This document shows, one piece after another, positions 57,408 to 62,442 of a DNA stretch of 64,000 nt. Made by a program: the position numbers and the translations under genes. Source of the DNA: Aurantiacibacter aquimixticola (GTDB taxonomy: Bacteria; Pseudomonadota; Alphaproteobacteria; Sphingomonadales; Sphingomonadaceae); assembly GCF_003605475.1 (NCBI RefSeq), contig NZ_RAHX01000001.1, positions 372,001-436,000 of the forward strand, given 5' to 3'. The first letter of the stretch is position 1, and each line of letters starts with the position of its first letter. The notes under the pieces are model-generated. The model made no database searches and had not been told where the DNA came from. It saw nothing but the letters and a program-made list of their open reading frames with translations.

Positions 57408-58802
57408 ATGGCCGCAAAGGCGCTTTATCTCGGGCCGCGATTGAAAAAGCTCCGGCGCGATCTGAGCCTCACGCAAGCCAATATGGCGAGCGATCTGGAA
57501 ATCTCGCCAAGCTATATCGCGCTGATGGAACGCAATCAGCGTCCGGTCACGGCCGATACGCTGATCAAGCTTGCCACGACATATCGGATCGATGTCGCCG
57601 ACCTGGCGGATGAGGATGCCGACGAGACCGCCGCTCGCCTTCAGGGGGCGCTCAAGGATCCGATCTTCGCCGACATCGATATCGAGCCGCTCGACATTTC
57701 GGACATCGCCACCAGCTATCCCGGTTTCGCCGAAGCGCTCCTTCGCCTGCATACCGCGTTCGGCGAAGAGCAGCTGGCGCTGACCGAACGCCGCGACGGT
57801 GCGCAGCAGGGGGAGGCCACGAGCGATCCGATCGGCGAGGCGCGCGCCTTTCTTGCCGCCCGCCGGAACAGCTTTCCCGATCTCGACGACAGCGCGAGCG
57901 CCGCGGCGCGCGAACTCGGCAGCCTCGATGCCATGCGGGACCATCTCGCTGACGCGCACGGATTGGACCTGCGCCTCACCGATGACGGGCTGCTGAACGG
58001 CGCGCTGCGCTGGCACGATTACCACCGCCGCCGCGTCTATATCGCCGAGCGGCTCGATCCGGCAGGGCGGCGTTTCCAGGCCGCCCTGCAGATCGCCATT
58101 CTCGAGCAGAACGAAGCCATTTCGACGATCATCGCCGATGGGCGCATCTCAACTGAGGATGGCGAGCGGCTGGTTCGCCGCGCGCTGCAGTCCTACTGGG
58201 CCGCCGCTCTGCTCATGCCCTATCGCGCTTTCACAAAAGCCGCGGCCGAGCTGCGCTACGACGTCGAGGCGATTGCGACACGCTTTGCCGTGAGTTTCGA
58301 GCAAGCCGCACACAGGCTCACGACGTTGCACCGCGCGGGAGAGGAAGGCGTGCCTTTCTTCTTCCTGCGGGTGGACCGGGCGGGCAATGTCTCAAAGCGG
58401 CTGGATGGCGCTGGCTTTCCGTTCGCCCGCCACGGCGGCGCATGCCCGCTCTGGAATGTGCACCGCACGTTCGACCGGCCCGGCGAAGTCGACGCCCAGC
58501 TCATCGAGCTGTCCGAAGGCGAGCGTTACGTCTCGATCGCGCGCACGGTAACGGGTGGGGGCGGGCGCTTCGGTGCGCCAAGCGTCACCCGCTCGGTCGC
58601 GATTGCCTGCTCCGCCGCACATCTGGAAAAGCTCGCCTATGCCGATGCGCTGGCGAAGACCGCGCCGACGCCGATCGGTGTCGCCTGTCGGCTCTGCCAT
58701 CGGCCGAATTGCATCGCGCGCTCCGCCCCGCCGATGGGCCGTGAAATCGCGCCAGCACGTTTCCGAGAAAGCGGTGTGCCCTTCGACTTTTCGACCGGCT
58801 AG
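57408..58802 (+). CDS. ScfR/RamB-family XRE regulator (short-chain acyl-CoA)
   Basis: 464 aa. N-terminal XRE HTH (LRRDLSLTQANMASDLEISP), a central IrrE-like domain without a clear metalloprotease motif, and a C-terminal DUF2083 region with GGACPLWNVHRTFDRPGE and the CRLCHRPNC cysteine motif. Members such as RamB and PccR control the glyoxylate or propionyl-CoA genes by sensing short-chain acyl-CoA. Here it is divergent from aceA, the expected target. Confidence 0.88.
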   Translation: MAAKALYLGPRLKKLRRDLSLTQANMASDLEISPSYIALMERNQRPVTADTLIKLATTYRIDVADLADEDADETAARLQGALKDPIFADIDIEPLDISDIATSYPGFAEALLRLHTAFGEEQLALTERRDGAQQGEATSDPIGEARAFLAARRNSFPDLDDSASAAARELGSLDAMRDHLADAHGLDLRLTDDGLLNGALRWHDYHRRRVYIAERLDPAGRRFQAALQIAILEQNEAISTIIADGRISTEDGERLVRRALQSYWAAALLMPYRAFTKAAAELRYDVEAIATRFAVSFEQAAHRLTTLHRAGEEGVPFFFLRVDRAGNVSKRLDGAGFPFARHGGACPLWNVHRTFDRPGEVDAQLIELSEGERYVSIARTVTGGGGRFGAPSVTRSVAIACSAAHLEKLAYADALAKTAPTPIGVACRLCHRPNCIARSAPPMGREIAPARFRESGVPFDFSTG

Positions 58803-59538: not shown

Positions 59539-60291
59539 ATGGCCGGTGAATTGAGAGACAATCGCGGACGCGGGGATACCGAGTGGGGCCTTCCCGCCGT
59601 TCATCCCGAAGGACGCAAATATGGCGTCATTGCGGTTGGAATATCGCTGTTTTTCCTTCTCATACTCGATTGGGAAATCATCGGCTGGCCACTGCTGGCG
59701 CTGTCGGTGGGCGTGTTTGCATTCTTCCGGGATCCCGAACGCGTGGTGCCGCAGGGCGAGCGCATGATCGTTTCCCCGGCAGACGGGCTGGTGACGCTCA
59801 TTTCGCAGGTTGATCCGCCATCGGAATTGCAGGGCAATGATGGCGATGGCGCACAGGGGCTGGGCACTGCTCCGGTCACCCGGATCTCCATCTTCATGTC
59901 GGTGTTTGATGTGCATATCAATCGCTCGCCGGTGGCGGGGACGGTCAAGCGTATCGTCTATATTCCCGGGGCGTTCATGAATGCCGATCTGGACAAGGCG
60001 AGCGAGGAGAATGAGCGCCAGCATGTGCTGATCGAGCGCAATGACGGTGTGCGTATCGGCTTCACGCAAATCGCCGGACTGATCGCGCGCCGCATCGTTC
60101 CCTTCATCAAGCCGGGCGACACCGTGGCCGCCGGACAACGCGTAGGCCTGATCCGCTTTGGCAGCCGGGTCGATGTCTACCTGCCAGCAGGCACGGACCC
60201 GACGGTGCTGTTGGGACAGCGGGTTGTCGCAGGCGAAACCGTGCTGGCCGAGATCGGCACGCAGGGCCTGCTCGAAGGAGTAAATCAGTGA
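59539..60291 (+). CDS. psd: Phosphatidylserine decarboxylase, short form
   Basis: 250 aa. It makes phosphatidylethanolamine. The short (archaeal-type) Psd pattern is seen: [37 protein letters not shown], and the self-processing site FGS (S209), which forms the pyruvoyl group. A membrane segment lies at about 30-65. ATG 59539 with GGCGGAG upstream. The next gene overlaps it (GTGA). Confidence 0.95.
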
Positions 60292-61232
60292 GCGGACGGG
60301 ACGATCGGTTCGATGACGACCTGGATGACGATGCGACCGCTACGCCCGGTCCGGCCTGGCTCGGCCCGAAGGCGAGCGAAGACGAGCATGTGACGCGATC
60401 GCGGGCGGGCAAAGGCCTTTCCGTGCGCGCCGTGCTTCCCAATGCCATCACCGCCGCGGCGCTTTGTTCGGGCCTGACGAGCATATTGTTCGCAGTGGCC
60501 GAGCAGTGGGATCGTGCCGTCTTCGCCATGATCATCGCCGGCATTCTCGACATGATGGATGGGCGCGTGGCGCGGCTGCTGAAGGCGCAATCGCGTTTCG
60601 GCGCGGAGCTGGACAGCCTCTCCGATTCGGCGAGCTTCGGCATTGCGCCTGCCATTGTCCTTTATCTCTGGTCGCTGGCGGAAATGCCCCGGCTCGGCTG
60701 GCTGGCGGCGCTCGCCTATGCGATCTGCTGCGCGCTGCGGCTGGCACGCTTCAACGCCCAGATCGATGTCGACGATCAGCCGCACAAGTCCGCGGGCTTC
60801 CTTACGGGTGTTCCCGCACCGATGGGGGCGGGCTTTGCCTTTATGCCTGTCTATTTGTGGATTGCGACAGACGAACCGATCTTCCGCGATCCGCTGCTGG
60901 TCGGCCCGTGGCTAATCCTGGTGGCCTTGATGATGGTGTCCAACGTCGCGACGCCGAGCTGGAAATCGCTGCGTCCCTCGGGTGAACTCAAACTCGCTGT
61001 GATCGCGATGGCGGGCCTGCTGGTGGGTGGATTGCTTATCGAGACCTGGTGGACGCTGACGCTGATCGGCGCGATCTACCTTGTCCTCATTGCCTGGTCC
61101 GTCACCGCCTTTGGCAAGATCAGACGCGCCCGCCGCGCTGCCGCTAAGCCGCCAGAGCCGCCCGCGCAAAAGCCTCTGACGGCCGACGAACTGGACCGCT
61201 CGCTACCGGGCGGGGAGCATCGAGACGCGTGA
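60288..61232 (+). CDS. pssA: CDP-diacylglycerol-serine O-phosphatidyltransferase
   Basis: 314 aa. The CDP-alcohol phosphotransferase motif D-G-x2-A-R-x8-G-x3-D-x3-D appears in [20 protein letters not shown], then DSLSDSAS. About six to seven membrane helices follow. It makes phosphatidylserine for Psd. The start is GTG at 60288, overlapping the psd stop, so the pair is translationally coupled. The 3' end overlaps the antisense small ORF by 89 nt. Confidence 0.95.
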
Positions 61233-61350
61233 GTTCCGCGCGTAGCGAAACATACTGGCGCCGCGCCTTGGCGAGCGAAGCAAAGCAGGACATGACAGCC
61301 ATCGCAGCCATCAGGCCGAAGAAGATCGAAATCGCGATAGTGAGCGTCAT
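61144..61350 (-). CDS. 68-aa single-helix membrane ORF under two LexA-type boxes
   Basis: 68 aa, family unknown. One membrane helix (TLTIAISIFFGLMAAMAVMS, then CFASL) is followed by a basic amphipathic helix ([18 protein letters not shown]) and a tail ending [17 protein letters not shown] 61350 has a good GAGGAAAC ribosome site. Two GTTC-N7-GTTC boxes lie 80-127 nt upstream. Small LexA-controlled membrane proteins in Caulobacter (SidA, DidA) inhibit cell division, so a similar role is an attractive but untested idea. The last 29 codons are antisense to the pssA end. Confidence 0.65.
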   Translation of the reverse strand: MTLTIAISIFFGLMAAMAVMSCFASLAKARRQYVSLRAELTRLDAPRPVASGPVRRPSEAFARAALAA

Positions 61351-61429
61351 CTGCCTGTTTCCTCGAATTCGGAGGGACAACCCCCGTTAGAGCTGGAATG
61401 TTCCGTCTCCCGGACCATCGACCGTGTTT

Positions 61430-61444
61430 GTTCCACTCATGTTC
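61430..61444. promoter_or_regulatory. LexA-type box A
   Basis: GTTC-CACTCAT-GTTC, the exact alphaproteobacterial LexA pattern GTTC-N7-GTTC. It overlaps the spacer and -10 region of the putative minus-strand promoter whose -35 (TTGACG) is at 61450-61455. Confidence 0.65.
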
Positions 61445-61462
61445 CGCGCCGTCAAGCGCTTT

Positions 61463-61477
61463 GTTCCGCTTTCGTTC
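61463..61477. promoter_or_regulatory. LexA-type box B
   Basis: GTTC-CGCTTTC-GTTC, a second exact match, 33 bp (about three helical turns) from box A and just upstream of the -35 on the minus strand. Same-face placement suits cooperative repression. Confidence 0.65.
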
Positions 61478-61671
61478 CAAACTTTGCGCTGGATTTGCAG
61501 ATCGGCATTCGCTAAAGGCGCGCCCGCTGGACAAAGAGCGACGCGAAATCTCGCCCGCTCGAACGTTCGGCAAATTCACATGGAAGGCACACATACCGGT
61601 GCCGTCCGCGGTGGTTCTCACTGCGGCCGGTTCCCCGCTTTCCAGAGGCATAACCGGAAAGGAATTTACCT

Positions 61672-62442
61672 ATGGCGGCTCCTACCGTCACGATGCAGCA
61701 ATTGATCGAGGCCGGCGCACATTTCGGCCACCAGACCCACCGCTGGAACCCGCGGATGAAGCCGTATATCTTCGGCAGCCGCAACGGTGTTCACATCATC
61801 GACCTGTCGCAGACCGTGCCGCTGTTCGCGCGCGCTCTCGACTTCGTGCAGCAGACCGTCCGCGCGGGCGGCAAGGTGCTGTTCGTCGGCACCAAGCGGC
61901 AGGCGGCCGAACCGATCGCCGAAGCGGCACGTTCGTGCGGTCAGCACTTCGTCAACCACCGCTGGCTGGGCGGCATGCTCACCAACTGGAAGACGATCTC
62001 CGGCTCGATCCGTGAGCTGAAGAACCTCGAAGAGCAGTTGTCAGGCGACACCAGCGGCCTGACCAAGAAAGAGGTGCTGAACCTCACGCGCAAGAAGGAC
62101 AAGCTTGAGCTTTCGCTCGGCGGAATTCGCGACATGGGCGGCGTGCCGGACGTGATGTTCGTGATCGACGCGAACAAGGAAGACCTGGCGATCAAGGAAG
62201 CCGGCGTGCTCGGCATTCCCGTAATCGCCGTGCTCGACACCAATGTGGATCCCGAGGGCATCGCTTTCCCGATCCCCGGCAATGACGATGCCAGCCGCGC
62301 GGTTCGCCTTTATTGCGACGCCGTCGCCCAGGCGGCGACTGCCGGCACGGGCGAAAACGTGGTCGATTCGGGAGCCGATATCGGCGCGATGGACGCTCCG
62401 CCCGCCGAAGCCGCCGCCGAAGAGGCCAAGGCCGACGCCTGA
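61672..62442 (+). CDS. rpsB: 30S ribosomal protein S2
   Basis: 256 aa. Standard S2: [20 protein letters not shown], then [19 protein letters not shown] and [21 protein letters not shown] low-complexity Ala/Glu C-terminal extension (about 240-256) is common in alphaproteobacteria. tsf follows 113 nt later with a strong hairpin between, as in other bacteria where rpsB-tsf readthrough is regulated. Confidence 0.97.

Follow-up and report, generated by a model that had tools for sequence, protein, structure and literature searches.

A LexA-type double operator ahead of a small membrane protein gene between rpsB and pssA in Aurantiacibacter aquimixticola: a candidate SOS gene and its family

We analysed a stretch of 64,000 nucleotides from Aurantiacibacter aquimixticola (the window), in which a small reading frame on the minus strand lies between rpsB and a pssA-type gene. 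This ORF of 68 aa (61350 to 61144, stop codon included) follows a ribosome-binding site, GAGGAA, at 61359..61364 of the same strand, i.e., both the frame and the good ribosome site described in the earlier note are present. Hydropathy places a hydrophobic helix at about residues 3-21 (approximately 61288..61344, minus strand). Upstream of the ORF are two exact matches of GTTC-N7-GTTC that belong to its strand, namely LexA-type box 1 at 61430..61444 (GTTCCACTCATGTTC, on the minus strand GAACATGAGTGGAAC) and box 2 at 61463..61477 (GTTCCGCTTTCGTTC), with a start-to-start distance of 33 bp. Between them lies the -35 element TTGACG (61450..61455, minus strand), and all three elements are found exactly where they had been reported before. 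Assuming a spacing of 17 nt to this -35, the presumed -10 is AACAAA (61427..61432, minus strand). Box 1 thus sits in the -35/-10 spacer and overlaps the presumed -10; box 2 is located upstream of the -35. The neighbours are on the plus strand: a convergent pssA-type CDP-alcohol phosphatidyltransferase gene (60288..61232; Pfam PF01066, E 9.7e-23), whose 3' end shares 89 nt with the ORF, and the divergent rpsB (61672..62442). Elsewhere in the window, 57408-58802 encodes a regulator combining an ScfRs C-terminal domain, an IrrE-like domain and a helix-turn-helix.

A single box of this form is not rare. For the window, 1.46 matches are expected and 2 are found, and 42 of 100 shuffled sequences also reach 2; the earlier note had estimated about two chance occurrences of a lone box per 64 kb. 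Over the 2.55-Mb genome we count 51 matches of the exact box vs 37 of the control pattern. The claim that paired boxes are not expected by chance holds up as well, i.e., the window pair provides the only two of these 51 matches that are less than 100 bp apart. The conservation of the boxes is stronger evidence than the rarity of the pair.

Within the genus, this conservation is complete among the homologues. The 68-aa protein was found in 26 of the 61 genomes searched, i.e., in 26 of 37 genus genomes (own genome included) and in none of the 24 outside; of the 11 genus genomes that initially gave none, two later matched a profile. Named relatives belong to Aurantiacibacter and Erythrobacter. 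All 26 homologues show two to four GAAC-N7-GAAC boxes together with TTGAC within 200 nt upstream, where the most common box-to-box spacing is again 33. Both ORF and boxes, which the earlier note proposed to look for in close relatives, are kept among these homologues. The frame also has coding potential: for codons 1-39, which in the window lie outside the pssA overlap, the median dN/dS is 0.42 (113 of 325 pairs with dS <1.2) and the variability at the three codon positions is 0.26/0.17/0.43. By these measures, the first 39 codons are under purifying selection and evolve as protein-coding sequence. Past codon 39, the median dN/dS is about 1 (207 pairs), an estimate that is distorted by the opposite strand.

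A profile search of 396 genomes of the order yielded matches in 31, 14 of them in the genus. Those outside the genus were mostly weak; several were false, and several lay inside long unrelated ORFs, but in five cases from other genera a comparable small ORF was preceded by a box. Given these weak matches, we surveyed the region upstream of rpsB by position instead of by sequence. From 108 genomes with rpsB, 94 were examined, comprising 60 of the family of the window genome (one truncated contig included) and 34 of other families of the order; the 14 left out all belong to other families. In addition, we used 30 rpsB loci that represent other families in the class (out of 56 class genomes with rpsB, those with an automatic locus) and 80 named loci, i.e., the best 80 of 562, which overlap with the 60-genome family set.

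Within 480 nt upstream of rpsB, 45 of the 60 family genomes carry an exact divergent-strand box and 48 a small ORF beginning with a hydrophobic helix; the two occur together in 43. For the 80 named loci, the box is found in 66, the ORF in 74, both in 66 and neither in 6; carriers are named Qipengyuania, Erythrobacter and Aurantiacibacter. In the 34 order genomes outside the family, a divergent-strand box was seen once and an acceptable ORF never; for the 30 class loci, the counts are three with a box, either strand being allowed, and again none with the ORF. Box plus ORF, for which the earlier note proposed a search across Sphingomonadales, is thus seen within the family and in 0 of 34 and 0 of 30 outside it. 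The ORF is not peculiar to this genome but part of a family that diverges rapidly and occupies the junction of rpsB and pssA.

Altered patterns are far less frequent in the same regions. When the spacing of the two GAAC words is changed to N6, the pattern remains in 6/60 family genomes and 4/80 named loci; for N8 the counts are 2/60 and 5/80, and for the letter control CAAG-N7-CAAG 1/60 and 0/80. A first-order Markov null model expects the box in 0.8% of the regions upstream of rpsB. Conservation together with the N6, N8 and CAAG controls rules out a chance origin of the boxes.

The exceptions count against the SOS reading. The 15 family genomes lacking an exact box within these 480 nt comprise one truncated contig and nine with nothing; in two, TTGAC is followed by a box with one mismatch, and in three an exact box lies at a greater distance upstream. 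At eight of the 80 named loci (8/74 with ORF), the ORF is retained but an exact box is missing, namely seven of Novosphingobium and one of a Porphyrobacter MAG (L209, L223, L225, L242, L246, L249, L250 and L258). A one-mismatch box was found in only one of these (L242), and either SOS control was lost at these eight loci or the operator has changed.

The position of the box relative to the promoter is fixed as well. When all gaps of 3-10 nt are counted, TTGMM and GAAC are separated by 6 nt in 82 of the 106 matches, which places the operator inside the presumed promoter. Selection by TTGAC-N6-GAAC-N7-GAAC leaves 78 distinct promoters with the surrounding consensus CGCTTGAC and with an A following the first half-site in 70/78 and the second in 78/78. 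This geometry points away from rpsB; an arrangement in the direction of rpsB, even if loosely defined, occurs in 5 of 140 regions. The window promoter carries, beside the spacer box, the additional one upstream of the -35. Since about 97% of the SOS promoters of Caulobacter are reported to be single-boxed (PMC12700426), the double operator suggests, by analogy, tight repression.

The genome also offers the respective regulator. It contains one LexA gene; an exact box begins 48 nt ahead of lexA, and further exact boxes are located 78 nt before recA, 17 nt before radA, 16 nt before a PA0069-type radical SAM gene and 66 nt before the ribonucleotide reductase alpha gene. In an mmcB-like ORF, the box lies just inside the longest reading, ahead of the domain, and is identical to the window box at 61463; a RmuC-like ORF, whose NCBIfam score is below the cut-off, has a similarly placed box. 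Many of the remaining matches in the genome are inside long ORFs and may be due to chance. At C1:358569-358583 (locus L006), an AT-rich exact box (GTTCATGAAATGTTC) lies 20 nt before an ORF of 118 aa that has no Pfam or NCBIfam match; going by its sequence, it is a possible further SOS gene without known family. On a small contig (C2:39922-39936, L106), another exact box precedes a DNA cytosine methyltransferase gene by 43 nt and may be a chance match, since it is also inside other reading frames. In Sphingopyxis granuli, lexA, recA and radA are grouped among the induced SOS genes (PMC6472365), and GTTC-N7-GTTC is the LexA motif reported for Caulobacter (PMC12700426).

Taken by what defines a LexA regulon member, we thus find an operator at the promoter, its conservation in relatives and LexA in the genome. 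Because of the conserved boxes, the promoter geometry and the position, LexA control of the small ORF is strongly supported, and LexA very probably represses it. The central proposal of the earlier note, a LexA-controlled small membrane protein, gains from the same observations and from the boxes at lexA and recA.

To characterize the protein itself, we considered 56 diverse members (below about 60% identity), which are 66-102 aa long with a net charge of +1 to +13. They have a single N-terminal hydrophobic segment, i.e., a second segment above 1.4 in hydropathy appears in only 1 of the 56, and in 17 members the best 19-residue window begins directly at residue 1. Summed over all members, no Lys/Arg precedes this window, and 201 occur in the 20 residues after it. 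The earlier note had described one membrane helix and a basic amphipathic helix. The positive-inside rule predicts an N-out/C-in topology from this distribution. The design of helix and basic tail persists at less than 20% identity to the window protein.

Family databases give the protein no name. Neither Pfam nor NCBIfam has a family above its curated cut-off among the matches listed for the window protein and its relatives. The only Pfam match of the window protein, LapA_dom (PF06305), reaches 16.1 bits vs a cut-off of 28 (E 0.011), so membership was rejected; this domain gives at most weak matches in 4 of the 26 genus members and 2 of the 56 diverse members. Relatives detected by profile (57 in one search; 217 in another, with 120 listed) are unnamed, hypothetical or uncharacterized among the matches listed. 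A search of open-licence PMC articles by title and start of abstract found no literature on this gene among the matches listed. For the cell-division inhibitor SulA (PF03846), the window protein has no Pfam match, and none was found anywhere in 21 genomes (0/21), with Escherichia coli as positive control. Nor did these searches reveal a resemblance to any other named division inhibitor.

The C-terminus is remarkable in that it ends in Ala-Ala for 50 of the 56 diverse members (15 of the 26 genus members) vs 2 of 45 window ORFs of at least 150 aa. It also lies opposite pssA: all 109 loci with box and ORF (family and named sets pooled, duplicates included) have the ORF between rpsB and a convergent pssA, and in 107 of them 16-104 nt are shared with the 3' end of pssA. 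An Ala-Ala end occurs in 100 of these 107 and in neither of the two non-overlapping loci. With almost all ORF ends lying opposite pssA, reading Ala-Ala as a degron is confounded, i.e., the end could be a by-product of the basic tail of PssA. We therefore looked at synonymous sites. From the relative frame it can be derived that an Ala codon requires a G at the third base of the opposite pssA codon. Opposite the last three ORF codons, the CGG:CGC ratio of pssA Arg codons is 89:22 (103 distinct ORFs). For comparison, it is 316:401 in the part of pssA that precedes the overlap and 27:77 in what remains of the overlap. Correspondingly, the third base is G in 254/311 codons opposite the last three vs 7138/16498 codons; these counts come from related genomes and are hence not independent. 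The synonymous bias in the pssA tail (61144-61232 and relatives) fits selection on an Ala-Ala tail. CtrA is one example of a protein with an Ala-Ala ClpXP degron. A C-terminal Ala-Ala has likewise been reported as ClpXP degron for CdnL of Caulobacter (PMC11034885).

What such a protein does is guessed from its kind. By hydropathy it is a small single-pass membrane protein like SidA, YneA and SosA, and as the 21 genomes also lack SulA, a role in division suggests itself. The explanation we consider best, by analogy and at about an even chance, is an SOS gene with a SidA-like division pause. LexA bound to the two boxes, in the promoter spacer and upstream of the -35, would keep the gene for a small bitopic inner-membrane protein off. 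Upon DNA damage, activated RecA would trigger the self-cleavage of LexA and the small protein would be made. It would then act in the membrane as SidA does, keeping the late divisome (FtsW/FtsI/FtsN) on hold for the duration of repair. Its cytoplasmic tail, usually ending in Ala-Ala, would probably mark it for ClpXP-type proteolysis, such that division resumes.

Published accounts describe SidA, YneA, ChiZ and SosA as small single-pass inhibitors that act on late division after DNA damage; SidA acts on FtsW, YneA binds FtsW, and SosA blocks late division. SidA of Caulobacter crescentus is reported as a LexA-repressed small inner-membrane protein from an alphaproteobacterium with GTTC-N7-GTTC operators in its regulon; by description, it differs in being 29 aa long, whereas the window protein has 68 aa and a basic tail. 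DidA of the same species, which stops division, is closer in size (71 aa, one predicted transmembrane helix). However, the earlier note was mistaken in listing DidA as LexA-repressed, since it is reported to be induced by DriD independently of SOS (PMC4211646). SosA (Staphylococcus) and YneA (Bacillus) are described as SOS-induced small bitopic blockers of late division that are removed by proteolysis, with CtpA acting on YneA and probably on SosA. In contrast to the predicted C-in orientation and Ala-Ala end of the window protein, their C-termini are reported as extracellular, that of YneA with a LysM domain; i.e., the topology predicted here is opposite to the one reported for SosA.

The protein might instead act on the membrane in the manner of the SOS-induced peptides TisB and DinQ from Escherichia coli, lowering the membrane potential or slowing growth with no inhibition of the divisome. 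TisB is an SOS-controlled single-transmembrane peptide, and both peptides are toxic, shorter than the window protein and accompanied by antisense RNAs. A small, hydrophobic and probably LexA-controlled protein would suit this picture, and DinQ is reported as an SOS-regulated toxic single-transmembrane peptide (PMC3567139). The family, however, is longer (66-102 aa in the 56 members) and has a conserved basic tail. Furthermore, Rfam showed no antisense RNA over 60900-61900, its one match there being below threshold (osmY, E 0.92), which leaves room for a new antisense RNA. We regard this reading as rather unlikely.

The adjacency to pssA in 109/109 loci invites the idea that a LexA-controlled membrane protein serves the envelope in another way, e.g., by tuning PssA, phospholipid supply or transport, with neither division nor potential directly affected. 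The SOS-linked HigX of Caulobacter has been reported to act on envelope genes (PMC13384398). This argument is one from neighbourhood, and we take such a role to be unlikely. The overlap of ORF and pssA in 107 of the loci would also permit an SOS transcript that works as antisense or by transcriptional interference on pssA, the ORF being secondary. This is improbable given that codons 1-39 evolve as protein-coding outside the overlap and that helix and basic tail are kept at such low identity.

The consensus of EcfG general-stress promoters is GGAAC-N16-17-CGTT. Several GGAAC words upstream of the ORF, and some GGAAC-N15-18-GTT matches in relatives, could thus be seen as -35 elements of this kind instead of LexA sites. 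Such matches occur in few loci and at differing places, GGAAC keeps its first G in no more than 47 and 42 of the 78 promoters, and the conserved unit is GAAC-N7-GAAC behind TTGAC with no conserved CGTT after it; lacking a conserved arrangement, this highly improbable reading was rejected. That the boxes serve rpsB, with which the ORF shares the intergenic region, can be practically dismissed given the direction of the -35/box geometry and the scarcity of boxes at rpsB loci outside the family (1/34 on the divergent strand, 3/30 on either).

Returning to the division pause under LexA control, a more specific version covers much of the family: division would pause in the SOS response through a fast-evolving N-out/C-in protein with an Ala-Ala degron for cytoplasmic ClpXP, and selection on the degron would shape synonymous codons of pssA. 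Resting on sequence patterns, this version is tentative and on balance doubtful. For sphingomonad-type Alphaproteobacteria, a search of open-licence PMC articles by title and start of abstract listed no match on how division is held under DNA damage. Here, an uninformatively named gene, found by position and not by sequence, lies behind a LexA-type operator in most surveyed family genomes. This suggests that an SOS effector can keep its place and its regulation even as its sequence drifts beyond easy recognition. The tiny membrane protein gene is therewith a candidate for pausing division during DNA repair in many sphingomonad-type bacteria, and if the more specific version with the degron is true, cytoplasmic ClpXP and not an outside protease would end the SOS arrest.
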